64,000 nucleotides of DNA. It comes from Oscillospiraceae bacterium (GTDB taxonomy: Bacteria; Bacillota; Clostridia; Oscillospirales; Oscillospiraceae). The stretch lies in the NCBI GenBank assembly GCA_015067435.1, contig SVMM01000005.1, forward strand, positions 124,001 through 188,000, given 5' to 3'. Below, one piece after another: positions 31,433 through 61,669 of the stretch (position 1 is its first letter; each line of letters opens with the position of its first letter). The position numbers and the translations under genes were made by a program. The notes below the pieces were generated by a model. It was not told the origin of the DNA and did not search any database. It saw only the letters and a list, made by a program, of their open reading frames with translations.

Positions 31433-31448
31433 GTTAGCTTTACCTAAC
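31433..31448. promoter_or_regulatory. GTTAG-N6-CTAAC box 1
   Basis: GTTAG CTTTAC CTAAC, the motif shared by the metal-related operons in this region. A plausible promoter (TTGAAC 31423, 16 bp, TAACTC 31445) encloses it. It controls the membrane-protein/ABC/hydrolase operon. Confidence 0.8.
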
Positions 31449-31499
31449 TCCGCGAAGGCGCACAGATGGCCGTTCACGAATACAGAGAGGATGAGCAGG

Positions 31500-31997
31500 A
31501 TGCTTCTAACCGTTTTTCTGGCAATCGTTTTTTGCGCGTCGATCACGCTGATGCTGTTATCGGCGGTGGCCTTTATTCAGGATAAGAGGTTCTTTTCCTC
31601 TGCCCCCAGGGAGGCGCAGGAGGTGATCAAAACAAGAGACAGGGAGCTGTTTTACGGCGCAAGGGTCATCGGATGGACGCTCATGGCGTTCAGCTTTCTC
31701 ATGATACTGGGCGTTGGAGTCATATCAATCTGGGACGGTCTCAGAAGCGGGTTTACCTTCCTTTCGTTTTTTCTGCGGTTTGTATTCATCTTCACTGCTT
31801 ACAAGGTCTATGACATGATCTGCTTTGACTACTTTCTGCTGATGCGCTTCAAGTTTTTCCAGCACTATTTCCCGGAAGTCGAAAGCATCTATGAGGGCAG
31901 AAGGTACGGATACAACATCAAAAGCCAGTTGCTGAAGCTGTTGGCCATATTTCCCGCCGCATCCGCGCTTGCGGCGTGGATCTGCGTGTCAATATAG
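31500..31997 (+). CDS. Membrane protein of unknown function
   Basis: A 165-residue protein with four predicted membrane helices (residues about 1-22, FYGARVIGWTLMAFSFLMIL, FLSFFLRFVFIFTAYKVYDM and LLAIFPAASALAAWICVSI). The loop between helices 1 and 2 is charged (QDKRFFSSAPREAQEVIKTR). ATG 31500 is preferred over 31491 because GAGAGG then lies 9 nt upstream. It is the first gene after box 1 and is followed within 26 nt by the ABC transporter, so it is probably a partner of that exporter. Confidence 0.75.
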   Translation: MLLTVFLAIVFCASITLMLLSAVAFIQDKRFFSSAPREAQEVIKTRDRELFYGARVIGWTLMAFSFLMILGVGVISIWDGLRSGFTFLSFFLRFVFIFTAYKVYDMICFDYFLLMRFKFFQHYFPEVESIYEGRRYGYNIKSQLLKLLAIFPAASALAAWICVSI

Positions 31998-32023
31998 AAA
32001 ACCACTTGAAAAGGAGATTGCTT

Positions 32024-33622
32024 ATGGAGGAGAAGAAACAAAGCGACGTAGCCGTCCTGCTGGGTTACGCAGCCAGCTACCGGGGGCTGACGTATCTCGG
32101 ACTTGCCCTGTCGGCAGCGGCGATGATACTCGGAATGCTCCCCTACATCTGCATCTGGCTCGCGGCGCGCATCTCGCTTGCCGAGCGCCTGCGGACGCTG
32201 CCGCTCGGCTACTTCGGCAAACGCGACCTCGCGGATCTCACGGAGACCATCATGGGCGACGTGAACCGTCTGGAGCACGTCTGGTCGCACTGCCTCGGCT
32301 ACCTCTACGGCTCGTTTGTCTCCACCGCGATCGTCGGCGTGTGCCTGTTTGCCTATGACTGGCGGCTTGCGATCGCCTGCCTCTGGGGCGTGCCGGTGGC
32401 GTTTGTGCTGCTCTTCGGCAGCCGCGCGCTCGCCAAGCGCGACTCCGAGCGCACCAAGGCGGCGGCGATCCGCGTCTCCGACGGCATTCAGGAGACGCTG
32501 GAGAACATCCGCGAGATCCGGGCGACCAATCAGGAGGAGCGCTTCCTTCGGGAACTGAACGACAAGATCGACGCGCATGAAAAGACGCAGCTGCGCGGCG
32601 AGCTGAATACCGGCATCTTCGTCAACGCGGCGAGCGTCATCATGCGCCTCGGCGTCGCCACCACCATTCTCGCGGGGACGAAGCTGATCCTCTCCGGGCA
32701 GATCGACTTTATGCTGCTGTTCCTGTTCCTGCTGGTCATCACGCGCATCTACGCGCCCTTTGACCAGGCGCTCGCCCTGATCGCCGAGATGTTCATGTCG
32801 CAGGTGTCCGCGGGTCGTCTCACCGAGATCCACGACGCGCCGACGGCAAACGGCGCGGCACATTTCGCGCCGAACGGCCACGATATCGCCTTTGAGAACG
32901 TGGGCTTTGCCTACGACGACAAGCAGGTGCTCCGAAACGTGAGCTTCACCGCGAAGGAGGGCGAGGTGACGGCGCTCGTCGGCCCGTCCGGCGGCGGCAA
33001 GAGCACCTGCGCCCGCCTCGCCGCGCGCCTCTGGGACGCGAATGAGGGCAGGATCACGGTCGGCGGCGTGGACGTCTCCTCGGTCGATCCCGAGGCGCTG
33101 CTCGGCGACTACTCCATGGTCTTTCAGGACGTGGTGCTCTTTGACGACACGGTGATGGAAAACATCCGCCTCGGCAAGCACGGCGCGTCGGACGAGGAGG
33201 TGCTTGCGGCGGCGAAGGCGGCGAACTGCGACGAGTTTGTGGAAAAGCTGCCGCAGGGCTACGCAACGCCCATCGGCGAAAACGGCGCGAAGCTCTCCGG
33301 CGGCGAGCGCCAGCGCATCTCCATCGCGCGTGCGCTGTTGAAGGACGCGCCCATCGTGCTGCTCGACGAGGCGACGGCGTCGCTCGACGTGGAGAACGAG
33401 ACAAAGGTGCAGGAGGCGCTCTCCCGACTGCTCGCCGGCAAGACCGTGCTGGTCATCGCGCACCGTATGCGCACCGTGGAGGCGGCGGACAAGGTCGTCG
33501 TACTCGCGGACGGCGCGGTCGCGGAGGAGGGCAGCCCCGCCGAGCTCTTCGGCAGGGAAAACGGCATCTTCCGCCGCATGGCGCAGCTTCAGGCGGCAAG
33601 TGCCGCGTGGAGCATCGGATAA
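32024..33622 (+). CDS. ABC exporter half-protein with internal deletion
   Basis: A 532-residue fused permease/ATPase. The membrane part has the segments TYLGLALSAAAMILGMLPYI, LGYLYGSFVSTAIVGVCLFA, FDWRL-type DWRLAIACLW, and FMLLFLFLLVITRIYAPFD. The ATPase has Walker A GPSGGGKST, a Q loop (MVFQD), LSGGERQRISIA signature, VLLDEATAS Walker B and an H in IAHRM. Relative to the usual layout of about 580-600 residues, the first helix (ICIWLAA) joins RISLAERLRTLPLGYFGKR directly: roughly 60 residues including helix 2 seem to be missing in frame. ATG 32024 follows AAAAGGAGATTGCTT. Confidence 0.88.
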   Translation: MEEKKQSDVAVLLGYAASYRGLTYLGLALSAAAMILGMLPYICIWLAARISLAERLRTLPLGYFGKRDLADLTETIMGDVNRLEHVWSHCLGYLYGSFVSTAIVGVCLFAYDWRLAIACLWGVPVAFVLLFGSRALAKRDSERTKAAAIRVSDGIQETLENIREIRATNQEERFLRELNDKIDAHEKTQLRGELNTGIFVNAASVIMRLGVATTILAGTKLILSGQIDFMLLFLFLLVITRIYAPFDQALALIAEMFMSQVSAGRLTEIHDAPTANGAAHFAPNGHDIAFENVGFAYDDKQVLRNVSFTAKEGEVTALVGPSGGGKSTCARLAARLWDANEGRITVGGVDVSSVDPEALLGDYSMVFQDVVLFDDTVMENIRLGKHGASDEEVLAAAKAANCDEFVEKLPQGYATPIGENGAKLSGGERQRISIARALLKDAPIVLLDEATASLDVENETKVQEALSRLLAGKTVLVIAHRMRTVEAADKVVVLADGAVAEEGSPAELFGRENGIFRRMAQLQAASAAWSIG

Positions 33623-33648
33623 GAGACTGGCATTGGGAGGGATGCTCC

Positions 33649-34578
33649 GTGATTATACAGTTTACGCTGGAGCGGGACGGATTCATCGGGGAGTTTCATC
33701 CCGGAACCCGCTGCAAGGACAAAGCGATTTTATATGTGGGCGGCGCATCCTGCGACAAAAAGATGACCCTCGCCATGGGGCGGTATGTGGCGGATGCGGG
33801 CTATTCCGCCCTCTACCTGGGCTTCTATCTGTGGGAGGGGCTGTCAAATAAAATGTGGCGTATCCCGGTGGATTACGCGGAGAGAGCGGCAAAATGGCTG
33901 GTTTCACAGGGATACGAGGTCTGCATGATGGGCGTATCGACCGGCGCGGGCTACACGCTGCTCTCCGCCTCGCTCATCCCGGAGATCCACGGCGCGGCGG
34001 CACTCTGCCCCTTCGATCATGTGATGGAGGGCATGGAGATGTTCAAGAAACCGCCGCATTGCTCTGTCTACCAGTTCCACGGCGAGGAGTACCCCTGTTC
34101 CCGATATGACCTTGTTCGAGGCGGTTGGCGCGCGGCACTCCGAAAGGCCCGACACGCAGGCGTTTCGATGAAATACTTTCTGCGCTATGGCTACGAAACG
34201 GCGACGCTCCGCCCGGAATCCCGCATCCGGGTAGAGCGGATCAATGGGGACATTCTGCTCACGACCGCCGCATACGACGTTATGTGGCCAGCGGACGCCG
34301 CCGTCCGGCGTATGAAACAGGTGCTCGCCGAAAGCAACTTTCCGCACCGCCTGACGGTCAGGGTCTACGAGGGCTGCTCGCACGGGCTGGGCGTCGGGGA
34401 TATGCGCGGCGTGATGGGCGGACGGCTGATGACCGCGCTGATCATGCGCTCGGTGGGCGTGACGGCGGAGCGCGCAACACAGGCGCGGCAGGACGTTCTT
34501 CAATGGCTCGAACAGTGGGCGGAGGACTATGAAGACAGAAGGGGAGAATCAATATGGGACTGTTCAAAAACTTTGTGA
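33649..34578 (+). CDS. Alpha/beta hydrolase fold protein (acyl-thioesterase-like)
   Basis: A 309-residue alpha/beta hydrolase. The nucleophile elbow is GVSTGAGY (Ser about residue 100), preceded by ALYLGFYLWEGLSN. An Asp is in LLTTAAYDVMWPADAAVR and a His in GCSHGLG, completing a plausible triad. The loop around the elbow and the RVYEGCSHGLG end resemble the BAAT acyl-CoA:thioester hydrolase C-terminal domain. The GTG 33649 start has GGGAGGGATGCTCC upstream. Its 3' end overlaps the methyltransferase gene by 25 bp; substrate unknown. Confidence 0.8.
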   Translation: MIIQFTLERDGFIGEFHPGTRCKDKAILYVGGASCDKKMTLAMGRYVADAGYSALYLGFYLWEGLSNKMWRIPVDYAERAAKWLVSQGYEVCMMGVSTGAGYTLLSASLIPEIHGAAALCPFDHVMEGMEMFKKPPHCSVYQFHGEEYPCSRYDLVRGGWRAALRKARHAGVSMKYFLRYGYETATLRPESRIRVERINGDILLTTAAYDVMWPADAAVRRMKQVLAESNFPHRLTVRVYEGCSHGLGVGDMRGVMGGRLMTALIMRSVGVTAERATQARQDVLQWLEQWAEDYEDRRGESIWDCSKTL

Positions 34579-35177
34579 GCCAGACGCGGAAGCCGGAGGG
34601 CTTTCTCGGCAAAATGATGCTGCGCAGCATGAACTCCGGGCACGCGCAGATGGCGGACTGGGGGCTTTCGCATCTGCCTGAGCTTGACGCGGACGGGATC
34701 GTCGATCTCGGCTGCGGCGGAGGCCGCAACGCCGGCGAGCTGCTGAGGCGGTATCGGCGCTCTCGCGTGACGGCGATCGACTATTCGGCGCTTTCCGTGG
34801 AAAAGGCGAAGGAATACAACAAGGGCATGATCGCCGCCGGACGCTGCACGGTGCGGCAGGGCGACGTCTCCGCGCTTGATCTTCCGGCGGAGACCTATGA
34901 CCTCGCAACCGCGTTTGAGACCATCTATTTCTGGCCGGGACTGGAAAAATGCTTCGCGCAGGTGGCACGGATTCTGAAACCTGGCGGGTATTTTCTCATC
35001 TGCAACGAATCCGACGGCACGGACGCGGCCGGTCAAAAATTCGAGAACATCATCGACGGCATGAAGTGTCACACGGTACAGGAGATCGAAGCGGCGCTCA
35101 AGGACGCAGGCTTTTCCCAAACAGCATCCTGGCATCATGAGGCAAAGCCGTGGATCACGGTACTGGCGAAGAAGTGA
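34554..35177 (+). CDS. Class I SAM-dependent methyltransferase
   Basis: A 207-residue Rossmann-fold methyltransferase. Motif I is VDLGCGGGRNAGELL (about residues 46-60), the acidic residue after strand 2 is in VTAIDYSALSV, followed by RQGDVSALDLP and the post-motif LKPGGYFLICN. An N-terminal helix (VSQTRKPEGFLGKMMLRSMN) is typical of this gut-Clostridia subgroup. ATG 34554 follows AAGGGGAGAATCAAT and overlaps the preceding hydrolase, so the two are coupled. The substrate is unknown. Confidence 0.92.
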   Translation: MGLFKNFVSQTRKPEGFLGKMMLRSMNSGHAQMADWGLSHLPELDADGIVDLGCGGGRNAGELLRRYRRSRVTAIDYSALSVEKAKEYNKGMIAAGRCTVRQGDVSALDLPAETYDLATAFETIYFWPGLEKCFAQVARILKPGGYFLICNESDGTDAAGQKFENIIDGMKCHTVQEIEAALKDAGFSQTASWHHEAKPWITVLAKK

Positions 35178-35192
35178 GGGGCGCGTGAGACG

Positions 35193-35960
35193 ATGCAATT
35201 CGACGAAATGGGCATGAAAACCGGAAAGACCCTGTTTTTGCTGCCGGGGACGGCGTGCGATTATCAGACGAATTTCGGCGCCGTACTGGATCGGCTCGGC
35301 GGGAAGTATCATCTGGTCTGCGTGAATTACGACGGCTTTGACGGCAGCGGGCTGATCTTTCCCGATATGCTCACGGTCACCGAAAAGATCGAGCGGTACA
35401 TCAAGAGAAACTATGACGGAAGGATCGACGGGGCCATCGGCTCCTCCCTTGGCAGCAGCTTTGTCGGGCAGCTGATCCAGCGCCGGAACGTGCATCTGGA
35501 TCACGGCATTTTCGGCAGCCCGGACCTCGACCAGAACGGCAAATTCGCCGCATGGCTGCAATCGAAGCTGGTCGTGCCGCTTCTGACCGGCTTTACGGGC
35601 AGCGAAAAGAGAAAGGCGAAGACCAGAGAAAAGCTGAAAAGCCTTTTTGAAATGAGCGATGAGAGCGCGGACAAGTTCATGGCCTGCTTTGAGAAGTTTT
35701 CTCCGCAGTCCATCAAAAACGAGTATTACACCGACCTGCTCACATGGCTGGAGGACGATATCCATGTGGAGCATACGAAGGTCCACTTCATCTATGCGAA
35801 GAAGATGGGCGAGAAATACCTGAAGCGATACAAAAAGTATTTCCGCGATCCTGATATCCGTGAGTTTGATATGCAGCACGAGCAATGGCTTCTCGGCGAG
35901 GAGAAATATACCGCTCCCGTGCTGAAAGCCATCGACGAGTTCATGGAAATGCCGGTGTAA
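35193..35960 (+). CDS. Alpha/beta hydrolase
   Basis: A 255-residue hydrolase. It opens with TLFLLPGTACDYQTNFGAVL, continues with YHLVCVNYDGFDG, and has the elbow GAIGSSLGSSF (Ser about residue 89) and a C-terminal FDMQHEQWLLGEE where the His of the triad is expected. The oxyanion loop LPGTAC replaces HG. No transmembrane segment. It follows the methyltransferase by 15 nt and precedes a second methyltransferase in the same operon. Substrate unknown; a thioesterase or esterase role is inferred. Confidence 0.82.
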   Translation: MQFDEMGMKTGKTLFLLPGTACDYQTNFGAVLDRLGGKYHLVCVNYDGFDGSGLIFPDMLTVTEKIERYIKRNYDGRIDGAIGSSLGSSFVGQLIQRRNVHLDHGIFGSPDLDQNGKFAAWLQSKLVVPLLTGFTGSEKRKAKTREKLKSLFEMSDESADKFMACFEKFSPQSIKNEYYTDLLTWLEDDIHVEHTKVHFIYAKKMGEKYLKRYKKYFRDPDIREFDMQHEQWLLGEEKYTAPVLKAIDEFMEMPV

Positions 35961-36012
35961 GTGTATAAGAAGGACGGAATAGAAAAAACGAAAGACGAGG
36001 GGGAAAGTCATC

Positions 36013-36792
36013 ATGGATCTCAAATTCGGAGACATTCAGGAAACCGCGCTGATCCCACTGGCAATCAAGGCGAGCGAGACTGCGCGCCCAAACGCGCGGA
36101 TACGCGACGAGAAGGCGAAGGAGATCATCGAGACGCTTGGCGTGGACGTGAGCAAATATGATCCCTTTTTGTCGCACGAGGGCGTCGTGGCGCGGACGAT
36201 CCTGTATCGCGACCAGCTCAAGGCGCTTCTGCAAGCCCATCCGGACGCGACCTGCATCAACCTGGGCTGCGGCTTCGACGACAAGTTCTCCCAGGTGGAC
36301 AACGGACGGCTGCGGTGGTTCGACGTGGATCTGCCCGACCAGATCGCCGTCCGGCGCAAGGTGTATGAGGATCGGGAGCGCTGCACCATGCTCGACGGCG
36401 ACGCCCTGAACGGCTACTGGACGGCAAACATCCCCAGGGCGGAGCTGTACATCATCGTCATGGAGGGCGTGCTGGAGTATTTTTCAAAAGAACAGGTCAA
36501 GACCTGCCTCAATATGCTCTGCGACAGCTTTCCCCACGGATACCTGCTCGCGGAGCTGCACTCCCCGTTTATGGAGAAGCACAGCAAGCAGCACGACGCG
36601 GTCAAATACACAAACGCGACATTTGGCTGGGGCACAAAGTCCGGGCGGGAGTACCTTGCTTTGGAACCGCGGCTTAAGTTCGTGTCCGAGACGAGCTACA
36701 ATGCCGAAATGAAGAAGTATTCCATTCGAGGCAAGCTGTTTGCCATCATCGGCAGGAACATCAACAACCGCCTCGCGGTATATCGCTGGTAA
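36013..36792 (+). CDS. LCM/TcmP-type SAM methyltransferase
   Basis: A 259-residue methyltransferase of the leucine-carboxyl-methyltransferase/TcmP family. Family signs are KASETARPNARIRDEKAKEI near the N terminus, RTILYRD, motif I CINLGCGFDDKFSQVDNGRL, and WFDVDLPDQIAVRRKVYEDR, then MEGVLEYFSKEQVK. These enzymes O-methylate small carboxylates or polyketides. It resembles the protein at 48668. ATG 36013 has CGAGGGGGAAAGTCATC upstream. It is the last gene before box 2. Confidence 0.93.
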   Translation: MDLKFGDIQETALIPLAIKASETARPNARIRDEKAKEIIETLGVDVSKYDPFLSHEGVVARTILYRDQLKALLQAHPDATCINLGCGFDDKFSQVDNGRLRWFDVDLPDQIAVRRKVYEDRERCTMLDGDALNGYWTANIPRAELYIIVMEGVLEYFSKEQVKTCLNMLCDSFPHGYLLAELHSPFMEKHSKQHDAVKYTNATFGWGTKSGREYLALEPRLKFVSETSYNAEMKKYSIRGKLFAIIGRNINNRLAVYRW

Positions 36793-36810: not shown

Positions 36811-36829
36811 AACAGAAAAATTTTCTGTT
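36811..36829. repeat. AT-rich palindrome downstream of LCM gene
   Basis: AACAGAAAA-A-TTTTCTGTT, 9-bp arms. It may act as terminator of the 31.5-36.8 kb operon or as an additional operator next to box 2. Confidence 0.45.
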
Positions 36830-36834
36830 AGGGC

Positions 36835-36863
36835 TTGCTTATTCTGTTAGTATGTGCTAATAT
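36835..36863 (+). promoter_or_regulatory. Promoter with embedded box 2 (36846-36861)
   Basis: TTGCTT, 17-bp spacer, TAATAT. The spacer carries GTTAG TATGTG CTAAT, overlapping the -10. A further half-similar copy (GTTAG ATGATG CAAAC) is at 36867-36882 over the likely transcription start. Confidence 0.8.
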
Positions 36864-36909
36864 CCTGTTAGATGATGCAAACAGCATCAAATAACGAAAG
36901 GGCGGGATC

Positions 36910-37167
36910 ATGATGTCTTGGAGCAAATGGGCGATTTTTGCGGGCGGCGTGCTGTTCGGCACGGCGGGAATCAAGGCGCTTGGAAGCAAGGACGCAAAAA
37001 AGGCGTACACGCACGTCACTGCGGCGGCGCTGCGGGCGAAGGACTGCGTCATGGACGCTGCGACGACGGTGCGCGAGGGCGCGGAGGACGTCTACGAGGA
37101 TGCGAAGCGTCTCAATGAAGAGCGTGCCTCGGCGGAGGATGCCGCCGTCATCGAAGACAAAGCGTGA
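36910..37167 (+). CDS. DUF6110 family protein
   Basis: An 85-residue protein matching DUF6110: one N-terminal membrane helix (WAIFAGGVLFGTAGIKALGS) followed by an alanine-rich charged helix (KKAYTHVTAAALRAKDCVMD, then AATTVREGAEDVYEDAKRL). In Clostridia these small proteins commonly precede P1B-type metal ATPases, as here. ATG 36910 or the adjacent ATG 36913 follows GGGCGGGATC. It is the first gene behind box 2, and its role, perhaps stabilising the ATPase in the membrane, is unknown. Confidence 0.85.
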   Translation: MMSWSKWAIFAGGVLFGTAGIKALGSKDAKKAYTHVTAAALRAKDCVMDAATTVREGAEDVYEDAKRLNEERASAEDAAVIEDKA

Positions 37168-37218: not shown

Positions 37219-39321
37219 ATGAAATGTAAGATATTGCATGAGTCTGCCGGACGCATCCGCGTCCATCTCTGCGGTGGGCGTATGAGCTGCGCGCAGGCGG
37301 ACGTTCTGGAATACTATCTTCTGGCAAAAGACGGCGTGATCGCCGTGAAGGTCTATGAGCGCACCGGCGACGCGGCGGTCTCCTACCTCTGTCCGCGCGA
37401 GGACGTGGTCGAGGCGCTGGCAGCGTTTTCCTATGAGGGCGCGGCGAAGAGCGTCGCCGTGCCGGAGCACACGGGCCGCGCAATGGACCGGGAATACGAG
37501 GAAAAGCTCGTCCTCCGCGTCGTATGGCGCGGCGTGAAGCGGCTGTTTCTGCCCGCTCCCGTGCGCATCGCTCTTGCGTGGCTGCGCGCGGCGGGGTATT
37601 TTTATAAAGGGCTCGCGACGCTGCTGCGCGGCAAGCTGGAGGTGCCGGTGCTCGACGCGACGGCGATCACGGTCTCCCTTCTGCGCGGAGACTACAAGAC
37701 CGCTTCGTCCGTAATGTTCCTGCTTGGGATCGGCGGACTACTGGAGGAGTGGACGCACAAGCGCTCCGTGGACGACCTTGCCGGCGCGATGGCGCTGGGC
37801 GTGGAGCGCGTCTGGCTGCGGCTTGGCGACGGCACGGAGGTTTTGACGCCGATTTCCGAGATCGTCTCCGGCGAGCAGATCGTCGTGCGTGCCGGAAACC
37901 TCATCCCGCTCGACGGCAAGGTCGTTTCTGGCGAGGCGGAGGTCAACCAGGCGTCCATGACCGGCGAGGCGCTGGCGGCGCACAAGGCGCCGGGCAGCTA
38001 CGTCTACGCCGGCACCGCCGTCGAAACGGGCGAGTGCGTCGTCGCCGTGGACAAGGTCTCCGGCGAGGGACGCTATGACCGCATCGTGCGCAGCATCGAG
38101 GAGTCCGAACGGCTCAAATCCGCGGTGGAGAGCCGCAGCGAGCATCTGGCGGACTCGCTCGTGCCGTGGAGCCTCGGCGCGACAGGGCTTGTCTATCTGC
38201 TCACGCGCAATGTGACCAAGGCGCTCTCCGTCCTGATGGTGGACTTTTCCTGCGCGCTCAAGCTGTCCATGCCGCTTTCCGTCCTTTCGGCGATGCGCGA
38301 GGCGATCACGCATGGCGTGTCGGTCAAGGGCGGGCGCTTTCTGGAGGCGGTCGCCGAAGCGGACACCATCGTGTTCGACAAGACGGGCACGCTGACGCAC
38401 GCCGAGCCGCGCCTTGTGCGCGTAGAACCGTTCGGCGGACGGGATGCATCGGAGATGCTGCGCCTTGCCGCATGTCTCGAAGAGCACTTCCCGCACACGA
38501 TCGCGAACGCCGTCGTGCGCGCGGCAAAGGAGCGCGGCCTTGACCATGAGGAGCGCCACTCGAAGGTGGACTACGTGGTGGCGCACGGCATCGCGAGCGA
38601 GATTGACGGCGAGCACGCCGTCATCGGGAGCTGGCACTTTGTTTTTGAGGACGAGGGCTGCCGTATCCCCGCGGGCGAGGAAGCGCGTTTTGAGGCGCTG
38701 CCGAACGAGTATTCGCAGCTGTACCTTGCGCTCGACGGCTCTCTGGCGGCGGTCCTTTTGATCGAAGACCCCGTTCGCGCCGAGGCGGCGGACGCGATCA
38801 CGCGGCTGCGGGAGCAGGGCTTTACACAGATCGTGATGATGACGGGCGACAGCGAACGCACCGCTGCGGCGGTGGCGAAGCGCCTTGGTCTCGACGACTA
38901 CCGCGCCGAGGTGCTGCCGGAGGACAAGGCGCGCTTTGTGCGCGAAGCGCGCGCCGCCGGACACACGGTGCTCATGGTGGGCGACGGGATCAACGACTCG
39001 CCCGCGCTCTCCGAGGCGGACGTCGGCGTCGCCATCAGCACGGGCGCGGCGATCGCGCGGGAGATCGCGGACGTGACCGTGTCGGAGGACGATCTTTTCG
39101 CCCTTGTGACGCTGCGCGGGCTGAGTACGGCGCTGATGCGGCGCATCCGCGGAAACTACCGTGCGATCATGTCGTTCAATCTGGCACTCATTTTGCTGGG
39201 CGTGTTCGGCGTGCTGCCGCCGGCAACGGGCGCGCTGCTGCACAACGGCTCCACGGTCGCCATCGGGATCAACAGCATGACGCGGCTGTTGGAGGATAAG
39301 CGGGAGGAAACGATATGCTGA
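37219..39321 (+). CDS. P1B-type metal-transporting ATPase, CtpC-like
   Basis: A 700-residue heavy-metal P-type ATPase. An N-terminal ferredoxin-like domain (MKCKILHESAGRIRVHLCGG, without a CxxC pair) is followed by membrane helices, the actuator TGEA in ASMTGEALAAHKA, the membrane metal motif DFSCALKL (Cys345) in place of CPC, the phosphorylation site DKTGTLTHAE (Asp387), HFPHT, and GDGINDSPALSEADVG. The S-C-A motif is that of CtpC-type Mn2+/Fe2+ exporters. Start ATG follows GGGAGAGAACC. The overlap (7 bp) with the next gene indicates an operon. Direction of transport is inferred. Confidence 0.92.
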   Translation: MKCKILHESAGRIRVHLCGGRMSCAQADVLEYYLLAKDGVIAVKVYERTGDAAVSYLCPREDVVEALAAFSYEGAAKSVAVPEHTGRAMDREYEEKLVLRVVWRGVKRLFLPAPVRIALAWLRAAGYFYKGLATLLRGKLEVPVLDATAITVSLLRGDYKTASSVMFLLGIGGLLEEWTHKRSVDDLAGAMALGVERVWLRLGDGTEVLTPISEIVSGEQIVVRAGNLIPLDGKVVSGEAEVNQASMTGEALAAHKAPGSYVYAGTAVETGECVVAVDKVSGEGRYDRIVRSIEESERLKSAVESRSEHLADSLVPWSLGATGLVYLLTRNVTKALSVLMVDFSCALKLSMPLSVLSAMREAITHGVSVKGGRFLEAVAEADTIVFDKTGTLTHAEPRLVRVEPFGGRDASEMLRLAACLEEHFPHTIANAVVRAAKERGLDHEERHSKVDYVVAHGIASEIDGEHAVIGSWHFVFEDEGCRIPAGEEARFEALPNEYSQLYLALDGSLAAVLLIEDPVRAEAADAITRLREQGFTQIVMMTGDSERTAAAVAKRLGLDDYRAEVLPEDKARFVREARAAGHTVLMVGDGINDSPALSEADVGVAISTGAAIAREIADVTVSEDDLFALVTLRGLSTALMRRIRGNYRAIMSFNLALILLGVFGVLPPATGALLHNGSTVAIGINSMTRLLEDKREETIC

Positions 39322-39959
39322 AGTATACGGGAAAGTATTGGGCGGTTATCCTGCCGCTCCTCAAAAAGTCGATGAACCGTTATTACGGCTCGGATTTCGT
39401 CAACGAAACCGTGAAAAAGGCGAAGCCCATCTACCGCGAAATGCTGCGGGAGACGGACGACGTCGGAGCGGATAACCCGATGGCGAAGAACATCTACGAG
39501 TGTTTCGTGTTCCTCTCTGTCTGGAAAGCGGCGGAGGGCAGGATCACCGCGGATGATCTGCGCAAGATCACGAGGGACGTGTTGTCCTTCCCGCCTCTAA
39601 GGGCGATGGGTTATATCATGAACGCCAATTCGCCTGCGGCAATCAAAATGGCTGGCGAAAAGATGCACGCCAATCAGGCATGGCTCGACGCGCATCCGCA
39701 GTACAAAGCGACCTCGTGGGATTTTAACTTCGACGAGACGCTCCACCGCGACGGGTTCTACTATCATTTCACGCACTGCCCGCTCAACGACTACGCGCGG
39801 GGGCACGGTATGATCGACATTCTGCCGGTCATGTGCGAAATCGACCATATGACCGCCGCGCTGATGCACGCGAAGCTCCACCGCGAGCAGACGCTTGCGA
39901 CGGGAGGAACAAAGTGCGATTACTGGTTCTACGGCGACAAACTGAAAAATCCGCAGTAA
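39315..39959 (+). CDS. ATC-hydrolase family protein
   Basis: A 214-residue member of the L-2-amino-thiazoline-4-carboxylic acid hydrolase family. The N terminus is LKKSMNRYYGSDFVNETVKK; the conserved core lies in SWDFNFDETLHRDGFYYHFT, HCPLNDYARGHGMIDILPVM, CEIDHMTAALMHAKLHREQT and a C-terminal LATGGTKCDYWFYG, where Cys, Asp and His are expected to act. In Pseudomonas the namesake enzyme opens a thiazoline ring to give cysteine precursors; most Clostridia members are uncharacterised. It overlaps the P1B ATPase gene and precedes a methyltransferase. Confidence 0.88.
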   Translation: MLKYTGKYWAVILPLLKKSMNRYYGSDFVNETVKKAKPIYREMLRETDDVGADNPMAKNIYECFVFLSVWKAAEGRITADDLRKITRDVLSFPPLRAMGYIMNANSPAAIKMAGEKMHANQAWLDAHPQYKATSWDFNFDETLHRDGFYYHFTHCPLNDYARGHGMIDILPVMCEIDHMTAALMHAKLHREQTLATGGTKCDYWFYGDKLKNPQ

Positions 39960-39971
39960 GGGGGCGTAGTC

Positions 39972-40661: not shown

Positions 40662-40663
40662 CC

Positions 40664-42136: not shown

Positions 42137-42165
42137 TTGACATATTAGCACAAACTAACTATAAT
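42137..42165 (+). promoter_or_regulatory. Consensus promoter with box 3 in the spacer
   Basis: TTGACA, 17-bp spacer, TATAAT. The spacer contains ATTAG CACAAA CTAAC (42144-42159), so repressor and polymerase would compete directly. Confidence 0.93.
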
Positions 42166-42188: not shown

Positions 42189-42239
42189 TTCCTTTTTGAT
42201 GTGTTGTTAGCAAAAACAAACGGAGAAAGAAGGTCATCT

Positions 42240-52012: not shown

Positions 52013-52047
52013 AGAACAGCCTTTGCCTTTCACCTGCCGGCACGGAT

Positions 52048-53461: not shown

Positions 53462-53477
53462 GTTAGCGCGGACTAAC
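53462..53477. promoter_or_regulatory. Box 6: GTTAG-N6-CTAAC before MATE gene
   Basis: GTTAG CGCGGA CTAAC, a perfect palindromic core, placed between a minus-strand TATAAT (53485-53490) and the MATE start codon, 25 nt before the ATG. Confidence 0.85.
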
Positions 53478-55448: not shown

Positions 55449-55663
55449 ACCGCCACCTCGATCCGCTCGGCGTCATCGCGGTTGAGCGCGATGAGCGTTT
55501 CCCGGCAATAGAGCAGCACGGGCATTTTCCTGTCGTTTCGGACGGTTTGGAAGGCTGCGCCCTCCGTGATCCCAATGGCCGTCACGCGGTTGATGAAATG
55601 CGAATCCCCCCGGATACGCGCCACCAGCCCGCGCGCGTCCGCGCCGGTCTCAGTCAGCTTCAT
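55445..55663 (-). CDS. feoA: FeoA-like protein of the second feo operon
   Basis: A 72-residue FeoA: MKLTETGADARGLVARIRGD, then SHFINRVTAIGITEGAAFQT, then LLYCRETLIALNRDDAERI. It has the SH3-like pattern with G-I-T-E-G in the centre. Its start overlaps the end of the Cys-rich gene by 14 bp, and its stop overlaps the feoB2 start (ATGA), so all three are translationally coupled. GGGGAGAAAATCAC precedes the ATG. Confidence 0.92.
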   Translation of the reverse strand: MKLTETGADARGLVARIRGDSHFINRVTAIGITEGAAFQTVRNDRKMPVLLYCRETLIALNRDDAERIEVAV

Positions 55664-55832
55664 GTGATTTTCTCCCCTTTTTCTGTTTTTCCCGGCAGCC
55701 GCAGGCGCATTGGGAGCAGCCGCAGCCGCACGAGCCGCCGCCCCTGAGCTTGCTCCGCAGCGCGAAAAACACGATCAGAATGACCGCCGCGAGAGCCAGC
55801 AGCGTACCGGCATTGCTTACAAGCCAATCCAT
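55650..55832 (-). CDS. FeoB-associated Cys-rich membrane protein, second copy
   Basis: A 60-residue protein: one membrane helix (AGTLLALAAVILIVFFALRS) and a Cys-rich tail (SCGCGCSQCACGC) followed by a basic end. It is the same kind of protein as at 45334, but here it comes first in the operon. It overlaps the FeoA start by 14 bp. Expected to sit at the membrane and handle iron with FeoB. Confidence 0.88.
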   Translation of the reverse strand: MDWLVSNAGTLLALAAVILIVFFALRSKLRGGGSCGCGCSQCACGCREKQKKGRKSHEAD

Positions 55833-55857: not shown

Positions 55858-55873
55858 GTTAGATAAAGCTAAC
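55858..55873. promoter_or_regulatory. Box 7: GTTAG-N6-CTAAC
   Basis: GTTAG ATAAAG CTAAC, 26 nt before the start codon of the Cys-rich protein on the minus strand. Confidence 0.85.
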
Positions 55874-55922: not shown

Positions 55923-55951
55923 AAGTTAGCACAAGATAACAATAATGTCAA
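55923..55951 (-). promoter_or_regulatory. Promoter of second feo operon with box 8
   Basis: On the minus strand TTGACA, 17-bp spacer, TAACTT. The spacer and -10 overlap GTTAG CACAAG ATAAC (55925-55940), so metal-loaded repressor would block it. Confidence 0.9.
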
Positions 55952-56054: not shown

Positions 56055-56070
56055 GTTAGGCAAAACTAAC
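56055..56070. promoter_or_regulatory. Box 9: GTTAG-N6-CTAAC
   Basis: Perfect match to the shared palindrome directly downstream of the -10 element. Confidence 0.88.
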
Positions 56071-56172: not shown

Positions 56173-56829
56173 ATGCTTGCAAAAAGGAAGCGTGTCGCCG
56201 CACTGATCTGCGGCTTGCTCGGCTGCCTGTGCTTTGGAAGCGGCGATTGGCTGATGCTCTGCGGAGACCCGGCGTACACGGGCAAGGTTTATTGGCTGAC
56301 CGAAGGTGTGCGTCATATCCCGCAGTGGCGGTTCGACCTCTCAATGGCGCTGGCACTGCCCGGGATCGTGCTCTACGGCATTGCGCTTTTCGCTGTGCAG
56401 GGCTATATCCGGGAGAAGCGGGAGCAGACGATTTATCACTATCTCAACGCTTTTGGCCTGACGCCGTGGCTGGCGCTGCACCTGTTCGTGGTGATGGTGC
56501 TGTGCCTATGGTCATTCGGCGGCGACCTGGCGCTTGCAACGGAGCTGCGCGACCGGCTGAACTGGTTCGTGTTCGCGTCCGAGGCGATGATGCTCCCGGT
56601 TTTTCTTTACTGGTTCTATTTGCAAATCAGCGGCAGGACGGTGTTTCCGAAATGGTTTGCATGGACGAGCGTGCTGGTTTTCTATGCGTTGCTCAGCGTC
56701 GTGAAGGCGCTTCTGCCGATCAGCGCGTTTCGCCTTGGCTTCACCAATGGCCTGATGAGCGAGAGTATGGTGCTGTGGTTCGGGGCCATGCTGCTTTGGG
56801 AGAGAAAAATGCTCAGAGAGGAAAAATGA
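56173..56829 (+). CDS. DUF6796-like membrane protein
   Basis: A 218-residue protein with about six membrane helices (VAALICGLLGCLCFGSGDWL, then ALALPGIVLYGIALFAVQGY, LNAFGLTPWLALHLFVVMVL and others). The opening GDWLMLCGD and the motif WFVFASEAMMLPVFLYWFYL match DUF6796. ATG 56173 has CAGGAGG 8 nt upstream, so the ORF's earlier ATG at 56134 is not used. It is the first gene behind box 9 and precedes an alpha/beta hydrolase by 1 nt. Function unknown. Confidence 0.85.
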   Translation: MLAKRKRVAALICGLLGCLCFGSGDWLMLCGDPAYTGKVYWLTEGVRHIPQWRFDLSMALALPGIVLYGIALFAVQGYIREKREQTIYHYLNAFGLTPWLALHLFVVMVLCLWSFGGDLALATELRDRLNWFVFASEAMMLPVFLYWFYLQISGRTVFPKWFAWTSVLVFYALLSVVKALLPISAFRLGFTNGLMSESMVLWFGAMLLWERKMLREEK

Positions 56830-56830
56830 G

Positions 56831-57658
56831 ATGAAGGTCTATGAATTTGGCGCGGAGCGGGAAAAGACTTTCGCCATGTTCCAGTGCGCGGCGGAGCCAT
56901 GGTGGGTGTTCAAGGAATCCGCGGAAGCCGTGGCAAGAGACTATCATGTATTCCTGTTTATTGCCGACGGCCACGACGAGCTGGGCACGGAGTTTGTGTC
57001 CATCGAGAAGAACGTGACGGACGCCGCGGCGTATCTGCGAGAGAAGGGCGTTTCCCGGCTGGACGCCATGTACGGCGTATCCATGGGCGGGGCGAGCGTG
57101 ATCCGCTTTCTGGCGACGCAGGATATCCCCGTCGCCAAGGCTGTCATCGACGCGGGGATCACGCCGTACCCCTATCCCAAATGGGTCTGCCGCCTGATCG
57201 CGGCGAAGGACTGGGTCACGGTCATGCTGGGGACAAAGTCCTGCCGCATCATGAAGCTGGCTATGCCGCCCGAGCGCTGGACACCGAAGGGTCAGGACCC
57301 GGAGGAGCACTATCGGCGCATTTTCGAGTTCGAGAAGCACCACTTTTCCGCAAAGACGATCTACCGCACCTTCTGGTCCACGAACAACTATATGATGCCA
57401 GACCCCGTTCCGGCCGTGGACACCGAGATCGAATACTGGTACGGAGAAGAGGAAAAACGCTCGCGGAAGAACGACCTCGCCTATACCCGCAAGGCGTACC
57501 CGCAGACAGTCCCGCGCGAGTTCAAGGGCCTTGCGCACGCGGAGCTGGTGTTGATGTATCCGGAGCGGTTCTATCAGGAGATCATGCGCTTTTTGAAGAA
57601 GCGGACGGGCATTCCCAACAGGAAGGAAAAGTCAAAAAACGGAGGGAAGTGCGACTGA
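56831..57658 (+). CDS. Alpha/beta hydrolase
   Basis: A 275-residue hydrolase: MKVYEFGAEREKTFAMFQCA, DYHVFLFIADGHDELGTEFV, the elbow YGVSMGGASVIRFL (Ser about residue 84), Asp in PAVDTEIEYWYG and His in FKGLAHAELVLMYPERFYQE. The lid region TKSCRIMKLAMPPERWTPKG is extended. It follows DUF6796 with 1 nt spacing, and both are under box 9. It resembles the small-molecule hydrolases at 33649 and 35193; substrate unknown. Confidence 0.87.
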   Translation: MKVYEFGAEREKTFAMFQCAAEPWWVFKESAEAVARDYHVFLFIADGHDELGTEFVSIEKNVTDAAAYLREKGVSRLDAMYGVSMGGASVIRFLATQDIPVAKAVIDAGITPYPYPKWVCRLIAAKDWVTVMLGTKSCRIMKLAMPPERWTPKGQDPEEHYRRIFEFEKHHFSAKTIYRTFWSTNNYMMPDPVPAVDTEIEYWYGEEEKRSRKNDLAYTRKAYPQTVPREFKGLAHAELVLMYPERFYQEIMRFLKKRTGIPNRKEKSKNGGKCD

Positions 57659-57912: not shown

Positions 57913-57928
57913 GTTAGCCGAGACAAAC
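57913..57928. promoter_or_regulatory. Box 10: GTTAG-N6-CAAAC
   Basis: GTTAG CCGAGA CAAAC, 20 nt before the start codon of the first ABC gene. One mismatch to the consensus. Confidence 0.7.
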
Positions 57929-57947: not shown

Positions 57948-59678
57948 ATGTTTCAAAAAATCAAGCCCTATATGGGCGAGTACCTGCGCTACACGAAGCG
58001 CTCGGCGGTATCGATCACCGCCGCCGTGATCCTGAGCGTGGCGCCGTATTTCCTGCTGTATCAGATCATCGCGCCGCTGACGGCGGGGCAGAGCCTGACG
58101 CCGGGCTTTGTGATGCTCCGCGTGGGGATCGCCGCGCTTTGTCTTGCGGGGAACGCCGTGCTGTACGTCCACGGGCTGGACCTGAGCCATCTGAGCGCCT
58201 ACAACACCCTGCGAAATCTCCGCACCGCCTTGCAGGAAAAGCTGGAATGCCAGCCGCTCGGCGCGATCCGTGAGCTTGGAAACGGGCGGATCAAGAAGGT
58301 GTTCACGGACGACATTGAGACAATCGAGCTGCTGCTCGCCCACGCCATCCCGGAGGGCGTCGGCAACCTGGTCATCCCGGCGGTGGTTCTGATCGCCATG
58401 TTCTTTGCGGACTGGAAACTGGCGCTGCTCTCCGTGGCCTCGCTGCCCCTCGGAATGCTTGCGATGGGGATGCTGTTCAAGCTCGGCACGAGCCGCATGG
58501 AGGCGTATTACGCCGCCGCAGCAAGGATGAACAACACCATCATCGAGTACATCAACGGCATGGAGGTCGTCAAGGTTTTCAACCGCGACGGCGAGAGCTA
58601 CGAGCGTTTTGAGCGGGACATCAATTACTACCGTGATATGACTCTGGACTGGTATCGCGTCTGCTGGCCGTGGATGGCGCTCTATTCCAGCATCCTGCCC
58701 TGCGTGGCGCTGTTCACGCTGCCCGTCGGCGGATGGTTCGTGCTCAGGGGCTGGAGCACGCTCGCGGACTATATCCTTGTGCTGTGCATGACCTTTGCCG
58801 TTGGGCCGCCGCTTTTGAAAGCGCTCAGCTTCGCGGGCAAGATCCCGCAGCTCAACTACAAGGTGGAGGAGCTGGAGCGCCTGCTGGATCATCCGCCGCT
58901 CAAACAGTCCGAACGGCCCTTTGAAGGGAGCGGGTATGACATCCGCATGGAGAACCTGCGCTTTTCCTACAAGGACGCGGAGGTGATCCACGGGATTGAC
59001 CTCGATATCGGGGAGGGGCAGATGGTCGCGCTGGTCGGCGAAAGCGGCAGCGGCAAATCGACGCTCGCAAAGCTGCTCGTGCATTTCTACGACCTGAACG
59101 GCGGACGCATCACCCTCGGCGGGCAGGATATTACCGATATGAGCGTCGAGTCGCTGAACGAGCAGATCGCCTACGTCGCGCAGGAGCAGTTTTTGTTCAA
59201 CACCAGCCTCTATGAAAACATCCGCATCGGCAGGCCGGACGCCACGCGGGAGGAGGTCCTGCGCGCGGCGAGCCTTGCCCAATGCGACGAGTTTCTTGCC
59301 CGCTTTCCGAAGGGCATCGACTCCGCGGCGGGCGACGGCGGCAAGATGCTCTCCGGCGGCGAGCGCCAGCGCATCGCCCTGGCCCGCGCGCTGCTGAAGG
59401 ACGCGCCGGTCATCGTTCTGGATGAGGCGACCGCCTTCATCGACCCGGAGAATGAGGAGAAGATGAACGCCGCGATCTCCGAGGTTATCCGTGGCAAGAC
59501 CGTGCTGATCATTGCGCACCGGCTGCACACCGTCATCGGCGCGGACAAGATCGTGGTGCTGGACAAGGGGCGCGTCGAGGCGCAGGGAACGCACGACGAG
59601 CTGCTGCAAAGCTCGCCGGTCTATCAAAAGCTCTGGGCGGCGGCACAGCAGAGCGTCGAATGGGAGGTGAGGGCATGA
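57948..59678 (+). CDS. ABC exporter, half 1 (permease fused to ATPase)
   Basis: A 576-residue type IV ABC transporter: six-helix membrane domain (SAVSITAAVILSVAPYFLLY, then RVGIAALCLAGNAVLYVHGL, GNLVIPAVVLIAMFFADWKL) and ATPase with Walker A GESGSGKST (about residues 362-370), Q loop YVAQEQFLFNTS, signature LSGGERQRIALARAL, Walker B VIVLDEATAF and IAHRL. ATG 57948 follows AAAAGGAGTAGGACG. It overlaps the next ABC gene by 4 bp (ATGA), so the two form a heterodimer, of the YbtP/YbtQ or IrtAB-like arrangement seen for siderophore-linked exporters/importers. Confidence 0.92.
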   Translation: MFQKIKPYMGEYLRYTKRSAVSITAAVILSVAPYFLLYQIIAPLTAGQSLTPGFVMLRVGIAALCLAGNAVLYVHGLDLSHLSAYNTLRNLRTALQEKLECQPLGAIRELGNGRIKKVFTDDIETIELLLAHAIPEGVGNLVIPAVVLIAMFFADWKLALLSVASLPLGMLAMGMLFKLGTSRMEAYYAAAARMNNTIIEYINGMEVVKVFNRDGESYERFERDINYYRDMTLDWYRVCWPWMALYSSILPCVALFTLPVGGWFVLRGWSTLADYILVLCMTFAVGPPLLKALSFAGKIPQLNYKVEELERLLDHPPLKQSERPFEGSGYDIRMENLRFSYKDAEVIHGIDLDIGEGQMVALVGESGSGKSTLAKLLVHFYDLNGGRITLGGQDITDMSVESLNEQIAYVAQEQFLFNTSLYENIRIGRPDATREEVLRAASLAQCDEFLARFPKGIDSAAGDGGKMLSGGERQRIALARALLKDAPVIVLDEATAFIDPENEEKMNAAISEVIRGKTVLIIAHRLHTVIGADKIVVLDKGRVEAQGTHDELLQSSPVYQKLWAAAQQSVEWEVRA

Positions 59679-61414
59679 TTGCCATGATGCAAAGAATACT
59701 TCGGCTCGCGGAGGGCTATCGGACGCGTATCCGGCTCGCGGCGGTCTGTTCGTTCCTCAAGGCGCTTCTCGGCAAGGCGCCTCTCGTGATCGCGTATTGC
59801 ATGATCGCGGGTTTTATCGAGGGCCGCGTGGACGGGAAGAGCTGCGTGTACGCGGGGGCTGCCCTGCTCGTTTGCCTCGCGCTGCAATGCCTGTTCCAGA
59901 ACCTCGCGGATCGGATGCAGTCCAGCGCGGGCTTCGAGATGCTCGCCGATTTGCGCAAGCGGCTGGGCGCGCACCTGCGCCGGATGCCCATGGGCTTTTT
60001 CACCGAGGGAAACATCGGCCGCATCAGCTCCGTGCTCTCGACGGACATGGTGTTCATCGAGGAAAACCTGATGATGGTGCTGGCGGATCTGATGAGCTAT
60101 CTCTTTTCCGCGGGAATTTTCGTGCTGTTCATGTTCGCCTTCGACTGGCGGCTGGGGCTGGCGGCGCTGCTCGTCACGGCGGTCATCTACGGCATCGGCG
60201 AGGCGATGAAGAAAAACGCGCTCATGCACTCGGCGGAGCGGCAGGCCGCCTCCCAGCAGGTCACGGACGCGGTGATCGACTTTACCGAGGGCATCGGCGT
60301 CATCAAAACCTACAACCTTCTCGGCGAGAAGTCGAAGGAGCTGACGGAGAGCTTCGCGGTCAACTGCGAAAAGAATCTGCGCTTTGAGCATGACTATGCA
60401 CCGTGGTCCCTTGCCATCAACGCGAGCCACGGCATCGGCAGCGCGGCGATGCTGGGAGTGAGCTGGCTTTTGTATCAGGACGGCACGCTGACGCTCTCCA
60501 TGTTCATCGGGATGCTGCTGTTCGTATTTGAGGTGTTCTCCCCGCTCAAGGCGTTCTACTCCCAGGTGGCGCGCCTCACCGTGATGAACGCCTGCCTGGA
60601 CCGCATCGAGTCGATCTTTGACGAGCCGGAGCTGGACAACGCCGGCACGGCGTCCGTCCCCGAGCGCTGCGACGCCCCGGAGATCGAGTTCAGAGACGTG
60701 AGCTTTGGCTACAACGAGCGCGAGGTTTTGCGGGACGTCTCCTTCTCCGTTCCGAGGGACAGCATGACCGCCCTGGTTGGACCGTCCGGCAGCGGCAAGT
60801 CCACCATTGCCAATCTGCTCGCGCGCTTCTGGGATGCGCGGAAGGGACAGGTGCTCCTGCGCGGGAGAGATATCCGCGAGGTGCCGCTCGCTTCGCTCAT
60901 GGACAACATCAGCATGGTCTTCCAGCGTGTGTATCTCTTTCAGGACACGGTCTACAACAACATCGCCATCGGCCGCACGGACGCGACGCGCGAGGAGGTT
61001 GCGGAGGCGGCGCGAAAGGCGCGCTGCTACGACTTCATCATGGCGCTGCCCGACGGCTTCGACACCGTGATCGGCGAGGGCGGCGCGAGCCTCTCAGGCG
61101 GCGAGCAGCAGCGCATCTCGATCGCGCGCTGCATCCTGAAGGACGCGCCGATCGTCATACTGGACGAGGCGACCGCATCTGTTGACGCGGACAATGAAAG
61201 CCACATCCAGGCGGCGATCTCGGAGCTGGTCAGGGGGAAGACCCTGCTCGTCATTGCGCACCGGCTGGGCACCATCGAACGCGCGGACCAGATCCTCGTC
61301 GTCGAGGGCGGGCGTATCGTCGAACGCGGTACGCACGGCAAGCTGATGGCCTCTGAGGGTCTGTATCGTTCCATGGTCACCAAAAGAAGCGAGATCAGGG
61401 GCTTTGCCCGTTGA
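59675..61414 (+). CDS. ABC exporter, half 2 (permease fused to ATPase)
   Basis: A 579-residue partner of the preceding protein. Membrane domain with TRIRLAAVCSFLKALLGKAP, LVIAYCMIAGFIEG, and FDWRLGLAALLVTAVIYGIG; ATPase with Walker A GPSGSGKST, Q loop MVFQRVYLFQDT, signature LSGGEQQRISIARCI, Walker B VILDEATAS and IAHRL. The start ATG 59675 lies in the overlap with the previous stop and behind GGGAGGTGAGGGC. As with the upstream gene, linkage to metal boxes favours transport of a metal-related compound. A terminator follows. Confidence 0.92.
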   Translation: MIAMMQRILRLAEGYRTRIRLAAVCSFLKALLGKAPLVIAYCMIAGFIEGRVDGKSCVYAGAALLVCLALQCLFQNLADRMQSSAGFEMLADLRKRLGAHLRRMPMGFFTEGNIGRISSVLSTDMVFIEENLMMVLADLMSYLFSAGIFVLFMFAFDWRLGLAALLVTAVIYGIGEAMKKNALMHSAERQAASQQVTDAVIDFTEGIGVIKTYNLLGEKSKELTESFAVNCEKNLRFEHDYAPWSLAINASHGIGSAAMLGVSWLLYQDGTLTLSMFIGMLLFVFEVFSPLKAFYSQVARLTVMNACLDRIESIFDEPELDNAGTASVPERCDAPEIEFRDVSFGYNEREVLRDVSFSVPRDSMTALVGPSGSGKSTIANLLARFWDARKGQVLLRGRDIREVPLASLMDNISMVFQRVYLFQDTVYNNIAIGRTDATREEVAEAARKARCYDFIMALPDGFDTVIGEGGASLSGGEQQRISIARCILKDAPIVILDEATASVDADNESHIQAAISELVRGKTLLVIAHRLGTIERADQILVVEGGRIVERGTHGKLMASEGLYRSMVTKRSEIRGFAR

Positions 61415-61471
61415 CCGTTTTTGAGAAAAACGTAAAGGAGCGTAGGTCAGTGAAAAGATAATATGCCTTAG

Positions 61472-61507
61472 GCAGAGCGGTATATCAATCGCCGCTCTGC
61501 TCGTTTT
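61472..61507 (+). terminator. Terminator after ABC pair
   Basis: GCAGAGCGG (61472-61480) pairs with CCGCTCTGC (61492-61500) and is followed by TCGTTTT. Confidence 0.85.
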
Positions 61508-61573
61508 ACATTGGAAAACGCTGTAAACAGACGGAGAAGAACCGCGCTTGCTAAACGGGGGAGAAAAAAGGAC

Positions 61574-61602
61574 TTGACAAATCGCGCAAGTTACCTTAAA
61601 CT
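61574..61602 (+). promoter_or_regulatory. Promoter with overlapping box 11
   Basis: TTGACA, 17-bp spacer, TAAACT; GTTAC CTTAAA CTAAC (61590-61605) overlaps the -10. Confidence 0.85.
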
Positions 61603-61653
61603 AACAACACAGACAAAAAGGAAGAGCCGTGCGGCTTTTTCTTTTACCAAGTT

Positions 61654-61669
61654 GTTAGCACAAGGCAAC
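61654..61669. promoter_or_regulatory. Box 12: GTTAG-N6-GCAAC
   Basis: GTTAG CACAAG GCAAC just before the ribosome binding site of the DUF2325 gene. A weaker copy of the motif. Confidence 0.6.

Follow-up and report, generated by a model that had tools for sequence, protein, structure and literature searches.

The window analysed here is a 64,000-nucleotide stretch of an Oscillospiraceae bacterium genome (assembly GCA_015067435.1, contig SVMM01000005.1, positions 124,001 to 188,000). Its second half contains an island (31338-61669) with genes for two Feo systems, ABC, P1B-type and MATE transporters, a series of methyltransferases and hydrolases, and a small regulator of the DtxR family. Copies of the palindrome GTTAG-N6-CTAAC precede most of the operons, including a flavodoxin operon at the island's end (Table 1). 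We consider it very likely that a small iron repressor of the DtxR family, SH3-less and of the EqbA type, uses this palindrome as its operator and would switch the island on under low iron. According to our own gene calls and grouping, 8 of the 10 transcription units in the stretch 31.3-63 kb carry sites.

Within the island, the palindrome occurs 4 times exactly, 14 times with at most one mismatch and 17 times with at most two, compared with means of 0.02, 0.23 and 4.2 (maxima 1, 2 and 9) in 60 dinucleotide shuffles. The entire window contains 19 matches at up to two mismatches (9.5 expected; none of 100 shuffles reached 19), whereas its first 31.3 kb holds no exact or single-mismatch match and only two with up to two mismatches. 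The original prediction of at least twelve copies in front of nearly every operon, without a comparable cluster in the first 31 kb, is thus borne out. In the complete genome (3.34 Mb, 36 contigs), all four exact copies lie within 31.3-61.7 kb, as do 14 of the 19 copies that deviate at one position or none; this stretch is 0.9% of the genome (binomial 3e-25). One of the five outside matches lies on contig 13; among the other four, which we take as chance occurrences, three look coding and one intergenic, as judged by eye from the raw, unannotated surroundings. The contig 13 match (15865-15938; L020:9865-9938) is part of a second copy of the promoter and operator of the flavodoxin operon (81% identity), with no gene evident behind it. 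The two-mismatch match at 42103, which falls within the 3'-terminal part of dtxR, is probably fortuitous as well.

Table 1. Putative operators and genes of the island (coordinates in the window)
Position	Strand	Feature	Remarks
31338..31353		operator, 1 mismatch	5' of ABC/hydrolase/methyltransferase operon
31433..31448		operator, exact	
31500..36792	+	membrane protein, ABC half-transporter, BAAT_C-type hydrolase, methyltransferase, 255-residue protein, LCM-type methyltransferase	operon
36827..36842		operator, 2 mismatches	1 mismatch in relatives
36846..36861		operator, 1 mismatch	
36867..36882		operator, 1 mismatch	
36910..37167	+	DUF6110 (PacL-related) protein	Pfam 4e-36
37219..39321	+	P1B ATPase, P1B6-like	FSCALKLS mid-protein, HN near C-terminal end
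39315..41647	+	ATC hydrolase, methyltransferase, ApbA-type reductase	
41722..42117	+	DtxR-family regulator	131 residues, without SH3 domain
42144..42159		operator, 1 mismatch	inside TTGACA-17-TATAAT spacer
42173..42188		operator, 1 mismatch	
42206..42221		operator, 1 mismatch	
42240..42691	+	feoA1, feoA2	
42792..42807		operator, 1 mismatch	between feoA2 and feoB; position kept in many relatives
42829..45786	+	feoB1, HMA-domain protein	HMA-domain protein at 45541-45786
51059..53436	-	MATE transporter, AraC-type regulator	
53462..53477		operator, exact	5' of MATE gene
53604..55832	-	FeoB-associated Cys-rich protein, FeoA3, FeoB2	
55858..55873		operator, exact	
55925..55940		operator, 1 mismatch	
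56055..56070		operator, exact	just 3' of TTGACA-16-TATAAT
56173..57658	+	DUF6796 protein, 275-residue protein	
57913..57928		operator, 1 mismatch	
57948..61414	+	exporter-fold ABC half-transporter pair	candidate YbtPQ/IrtAB-like
61590..61605		operator, 1 mismatch	overlaps -10
61654..61669		operator, 2 mismatches	ahead of ribosome-binding site
61685..62979	+	DUF2325, DUF3793, flavodoxin	DUF3793 at 61977-62528, flavodoxin at 62557-62979

Several copies had been placed inside consensus promoters, which holds to different degrees. The 42144 site occupies the spacer of its promoter (42137-42165), and the 61590 site overlaps the -10 element of TTGACA-17-TAAACT (61574-61602). The 56055 site immediately follows its promoter (56023-56050) rather than lying within it, the 36846 site overlaps a weak TTGCTT-17-TAATAT (36835-36863), and near 55925 the promoter scan gave nothing better than weak candidates matching 8 of 12 letters. 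Operators are spaced 29-33 bp apart in front of feoA (42144, 42173 and 42206) and 19-21 bp apart in front of the DUF6110-P1B genes. A pair spaced similarly to 31338/31433 precedes the same gene in one relative (G014 C20).

The regulator contains an N-terminal winged helix (PF01325, 1.4e-10) and a metal-binding and dimerisation domain (PF02742, 6.5e-12), both above the Pfam cut-offs, and ends after the latter; the SH3-like C-terminal domain of the DtxR/IdeR subclass is missing. The family assignment of the original prediction is hence confirmed, although its start at 41656 is probably too early because homologues start at the position equivalent to 41722. DtxR binds its metal through Met10, Cys102, Glu105 and His106, and DtxR and IdeR share the ligands of the present regulator, which has Met9, Glu12, His77, Cys99, Glu102 and His103 at the ligand positions, with Met9, Cys99, Glu102 and His103 forming the iron-type set. 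In an alignment of 126 rows (including the window protein, its own locus repeated, and certain species twice), His77 is present in 126 of 126, Cys99 and Glu102 in every one of the 125 rows without a gap, and His103 in 123 of 125; position 9 is Met in 93 rows, Asp in 17 and Asn in 16. The counts for Met9 and Cys99 are partly selected, given that 79 of the rows were retrieved with peptide patterns containing these two residues; 40 other rows are unselected.

The genome encodes two more paralogues, one about 23 kb downstream of this gene, beside a ZIP-family transporter gene, and the other on contig 30. The three recognition helices differ little (VTRPSVSRAIH and FSRPSVSRAVH), so that cross-binding is likely. 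The locus of the second paralogue, just past the window (L019:427-1694), comprises the ZIP-family gene followed by the 75%-identical regulator, and no operator match with up to two mismatches was found in L019. Homologues with 44-57% identity were also observed in 'Bacteriophage sp.' records from human faeces (MT837232, MT838952, MT836800 and others), mostly short and possibly mislabelled bacterial fragments.

The regulator and the palindrome are linked across relatives. Among 79 homologue loci (1.21 Mb, some from close relatives of one another), 88 exact copies were found in 35 loci, which ranks these arms first of the 1024 palindromic arms at spacing 6; the next-best arm has 20 copies. At the other spacings from 0 to 13, there is no exact copy except one at spacing 8, and with one mismatch, 139 copies at spacing 6 compare with 0-17 elsewhere and an average of 24 for 29 permuted arms. 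The canonical DtxR spacing (TTAGGTTAGGCTAACCTAA-type operator) was considered and rejected, as GTTAG-N1-CTAAC, the inner part of the 19-bp box and the only part scanned for, has no exact copy in these loci, whereas spacing 6 gives 88. A recurrent gene order consists of dtxR, operators and divergent feoA-feoA-feoB, often with an extra operator ahead of feoB; sites between divergent dtxR and feoA were seen in records labelled Oscillospiraceae as well as Lachnospiraceae. Exact sites are present in 87 of 99 genomes, the source genome included, and are absent from 8 of the 12 genomes lacking a DtxR match but from only 4 of the 87 having one (Fisher p = 1.2e-6).

The nucleotide at base 6 of the half-site covaries with residue 42 of the regulator's recognition helix. 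Regulators with Arg42 are accompanied by C at this base in 73 of 142 half-sites (15 genomes), whereas Tyr42 regulators prefer A (A in 17 and C in 4 of 30 half-sites, three genomes); C is found in 18 of 46 half-sites with Val42, 1 of 10 with Ile42 and 3 of 26 in the mixed Tyr/His genome G048. In G005, G011, G012 and G048, A or T is favoured over C beside GTTAG, and the regulators have Tyr42 (Tyr and His in G048). Compared per genome, Arg42 differs from the rest with p = 0.0023 (Mann-Whitney, 15 vs 10 genomes), p = 0.0013 after addition of left-out genomes (18 vs 11), and, split by genus, p = 0.007 outside (8 vs 8) and p = 0.009 inside (10 vs 3).

The sites are also conserved in front of the target genes. 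In regions of up to 500 bp 5' of profile matches, with at most one mismatch allowed, DUF3793 genes have sites in 26 of 30 loci (exact in 19; 30 loci of 42 matches, own genome included). For DUF3793, DUF6110 and FeoB, respectively, 29 permuted-arm controls give means of 0.41, 0.17 and 0.41, and wrong spacings give 0-6 of 30, 0-1 of 25 and 0-4 of 30. GTTAG-N6-CTAAC precedes feoAAB, DUF3793-flavodoxin, feoB2, DUF6110-P1B ATPase and ABC-pair genes in other genomes, and the sites of same-genus genomes also lie 5' of ABC pairs and methyltransferase genes. The non-transport genes under the palindrome had been described as not a known set; many of them are found again in other Clostridia, together with the same operators.

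The closest described system is EqbA, encoded in the equibactin locus of ICESe2 of Streptococcus equi, which the available part of its report describes as an SH3-less DtxR-type repressor with a Cys ligand and Asn replacing Met, for which the authors proposed a new subclass (PMC3672683). In electrophoretic mobility shift assays, EqbA bound only where a 36-bp palindrome in front of eqbB was present, and Fe2+ and Zn2+ strengthened the binding, Mn2+ less so (PMC3672683); that operator contains GTTAGATGTATCTAAC. The island regulator resembles EqbA in lacking SH3, in its Cys ligand, in the GTTAG-N6-CTAAC palindrome and in its predicted control of iron acquisition, as judged without a direct alignment to EqbA. 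The S. equi locus includes a YbtPQ-like ABC pair (EqbK and EqbL; PMC3672683), for which the island pair is a candidate counterpart. Binding of the palindrome in a metal-dependent manner is on record for EqbA alone (PMC3672683). EqbA has Asn in place of Met9, and a single long nested palindrome in front of a nonribosomal peptide synthetase (NRPS) operon, whereas the island has many 16-bp sites in front of feo, flavodoxin and other genes; no NRPS was found among the island genes scanned. An Anaerococcus prevotii plasmid (NC_013164.1:21067-43109, L371) encodes a regulator 43% identical to that of the window, with an exact operator just 3' of TATAAT, before an NRPS cluster whose last genes encode an ABC pair. 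This plasmid was typed as conjugative; its NRPS cluster is equibactin-like and its regulator EqbA-like.

The DtxR/IdeR regulons of Actinobacteria likewise involve this regulator family and iron uptake targets, and TTAG-N6-CTAA is contained in their consensus, as originally noted; however, the latter is a 19-bp box, TTAGGTTAG(G/C)CTAACCTAA, as quoted from the part of the source available (PMC1382209), rather than a single 16-bp palindrome of the EqbA kind, and DtxR and IdeR possess the SH3-like fold (PMC3672683). A feoA-feoA-feoB operon is also known from Faecalibacterium duncaniae, another gut member of the Oscillospiraceae, where ferrous sulfate represses feoAABC and a flavodoxin gene rises alongside, according to the accessible portion of that study, which names neither a regulator nor an operator (PMC10781979). 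F. duncaniae was sought among 400 genomes of the family by the published feoB primers; the forward primer matched 34, and the reverse had at least 5 mismatches in the 30 loci fetched. No account of the motif as a clostridial regulon was found in the literature searched, with most subscription journals and regulon databases outside the search.

The predicted system extends the EqbA switch to a broader range of genes rather than introducing a new kind of regulator, and is, on the sequence evidence, an EqbA-type iron regulon in Clostridia wider than any we found in print. We infer that the DtxR-type regulator binds the sites and acts as a repressor, not an activator, with Fe2+ as effector. As the sites lie within or next to the -35/-10 region, an Fe2+-bound dimer occupying one 16-bp palindrome would block RNA polymerase; under falling iron it would be released and the island switched on. 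The induced set would comprise both Feo systems, flavodoxin with DUF3793 and DUF2325, the YbtPQ/IrtAB-like ABC pair, the DUF6110-P1B6-like ATPase, MATE, and the recurring methyltransferase/hydrolase set. Flavodoxin is a known iron-sparing protein that saves the iron used in ferredoxin. If this is correct, uncultured gut and rumen Clostridia acquire a readable iron switch, with an operator, a regulator family, a helix-to-base rule and a target list; DUF3793, DUF6796, ATC hydrolases and P1B6-like ATPases would be placed in the iron response, and a recurring iron-controlled enzyme set would come into view. A DtxR-type iron regulon, as originally proposed, remains the best reading, and much of its support is independent of the source genome.

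Several observations weigh against this interpretation. The genome-wide number of matches does not exceed that of a reversed-pattern control (19 vs 29 at up to one mismatch; 119 vs 497 at two), so that the non-random signal is the clustering and position of the sites rather than their count. Two island units, 45808-46491(-) and 46581-50993(+), the latter with abh1, abh3, LCM2, MT3 and MT4, lack sites. Upstream sites were detected for only 13 of 30 FeoB loci (10 exact; loci from a longer list, paralogues mixed) and only 10 of all 25 DUF6110 matches (one exact), nine of the ten in the same genus; in the DUF3793 set, spacing 10 reaches 6 of 30 (three exact), the highest of the wrong spacings, which is unexplained. 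For five of six named plasmid-borne homologues, the 6 kb around the gene contain no site with up to one mismatch, and exact sites are missing altogether from three of the six plasmid records (plasmids only, chromosomes not searched). The helix-base statistics account for phylogeny by the genus split alone, and a P1B-type exporter sharing a repressor with iron importers is unexpected, one guess being that it removes metals leaking in via Feo. Sites occur in four genomes without a DtxR match (G017, 1; G052, 1; G067, 7; G076, 5), of which G067 and G076 may be incompletely assembled, as their sister genomes carry a regulator homologue. Finally, G002, G004, G008 and G010, of the same genus and 88-100% complete, have 4, 2, 9 and 8 exact sites, respectively, yet their sole DtxR match is an unlinked paralogue (61-63% identical, resembling the contig 30 paralogue as judged without a tree). 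The copy first placed at 41656 therefore need not be the main binder; it may be an added regulator, and any of the three paralogues may bind.

These four genomes, with sites but no feo-linked DtxR, might also suggest that the palindromes belong to another, unlinked regulator, such as the AraC-type protein at 51059, the DtxR gene being a mere neighbour. This is highly improbable: the same genomes still encode a DtxR with the recognition helix FSRPSVSRAVHLL, the sites track DtxR presence over the 99 genomes and occupy the region between the divergently transcribed dtxR and feoA, the identity of base 6 follows the DtxR helix, and EqbA bound such a palindrome (PMC3672683). A local repeat devoid of any regulatory role, to which the copy on contig 13 could be attributed, is scarcely credible when the six central bases differ among copies and the sites lie at promoters and are conserved 5' of the same genes in distant genomes. 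More weight, although still little, is due to a regulator that senses mainly Mn2+ or Zn2+ in the manner of MntR, with the island as a general divalent-metal regulon. MntR is the best NCBIfam match, under the cut-off (69 bits vs 138), and MntR of Bacillus subtilis has the same length and two-domain layout and is the top PDB sequence match. The second paralogue neighbours a ZIP-family gene, and 33 of the 126 aligned rows have Asp or Asn at position 9. However, the matching PDB chain (1on2, the D8M mutant) has Met at position 8 in place of Asp8, the manganese ligands Asp8 and Glu99 of MntR correspond to Met9 and Cys99 in the window protein, and Cys replaces the Glu in all 125 gap-free rows (79 of them pattern-selected for Cys). 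The most constant target tested is DUF3793 with the iron-sparing flavodoxin. Zn2+ as well as Fe2+ enhanced EqbA binding (PMC3672683), whereas it is ferrous sulfate that represses the Faecalibacterium operon (PMC10781979).

The least known part of the system is the recurring enzyme set linked to the operators. In Butyrivibrio sp. CB08, 17 exact sites were counted, compared with 2 for the reversed pattern, and the genes behind or near them include those for ATC hydrolase, LCM, DUF6796, BAAT_C hydrolase, methyltransferases, ApbA, ABC pairs, a Trep_Strep protein, enolase and a second DtxR. Identities to the window proteins reach 78% for LCM1, 76% for the 255-residue protein, 70% for abh3, 69% for MT1, 58% for DtxR, 55% for MT3 and 53% for abh1, with weaker values for others such as ApbA (36%) and the 275-residue protein (32%). 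The 255-residue protein has no Pfam match but resembles alpha/beta-hydrolases; homologues at 42% identity or more were found in six other genomes (two of one genus) among 391 of the class, and exact operators lie within the fetched 16-20 kb in five of the six loci, the sixth being a 7-kb contig. We tentatively suggest, with more doubt than confidence, that a mobile module, induced by iron starvation and shared by Oscillospirales and Lachnospirales under one EqbA-type switch, is made up of the methyltransferases, alpha/beta-hydrolases, ApbA-type reductase, ATC hydrolase and DUF6796 protein. It would possibly represent an NRPS-free route that makes, modifies or strips a metallophore, with the YbtPQ-like ABC pair as its importer. 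The 275-residue protein has no Pfam match and only weak PDB matches of hydrolase type. Across seven aligned DUF3793 proteins, the stretch FPHEIGLFL is invariant and cysteines are conserved in part; the predicted structure of DUF3793 (predicted local distance difference test score 87, from the seven-sequence alignment) has no PDB match at E <= 0.001.

The ABC half-transporter pair had originally been listed among exporters. Among the best 60 of 248 PDB matches of the 57948 protein, YbtP (1e-94) and IrtA (1e-83), both siderophore importers, lead the single-subunit chains, with multidomain P-glycoproteins scoring higher still; its partner matches Sav1866 and YbtQ equally closely and is not distinguishable from exporters. 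Compared with the two ABC proteins encoded at the A. prevotii locus, the pair shows 36% and 37% identity, and a role as an importer is plausible. The P1B ATPase, judging from its HN motif near the C-terminal end (located in the sequence, without helix prediction) and its DUF6110 partner gene, fits the P1B6 group, which is defined by HN in the sixth transmembrane helix plus a DUF6110 partner and is described as poorly characterised in the part of the source available (PMC9374683). The PacL1-CtpC efflux platform and the DUF6110-P1B6 pairs show the same order of a DUF6110 protein and a P1B ATPase with HN near the C-terminal end (PMC9374683), but the island pair sits under an iron-type operator. 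In the second Feo system, FeoA3 (55445-55663; PF04023, 4e-11) and FeoB2 (53604-55448) accompany a FeoB-associated Cys-rich protein (55650-55832) scoring just under the Pfam cut-off.

Outside the island, the window encodes a C-type lectin domain protein (3111-4115) and an AAA/MoxR-type ATPase adjoining a DUF2201 metallopeptidase/VWA protein (22135-24956). The G+C content at 4-20 kb is 0.53-0.56, below the 0.60-0.62 of the island.

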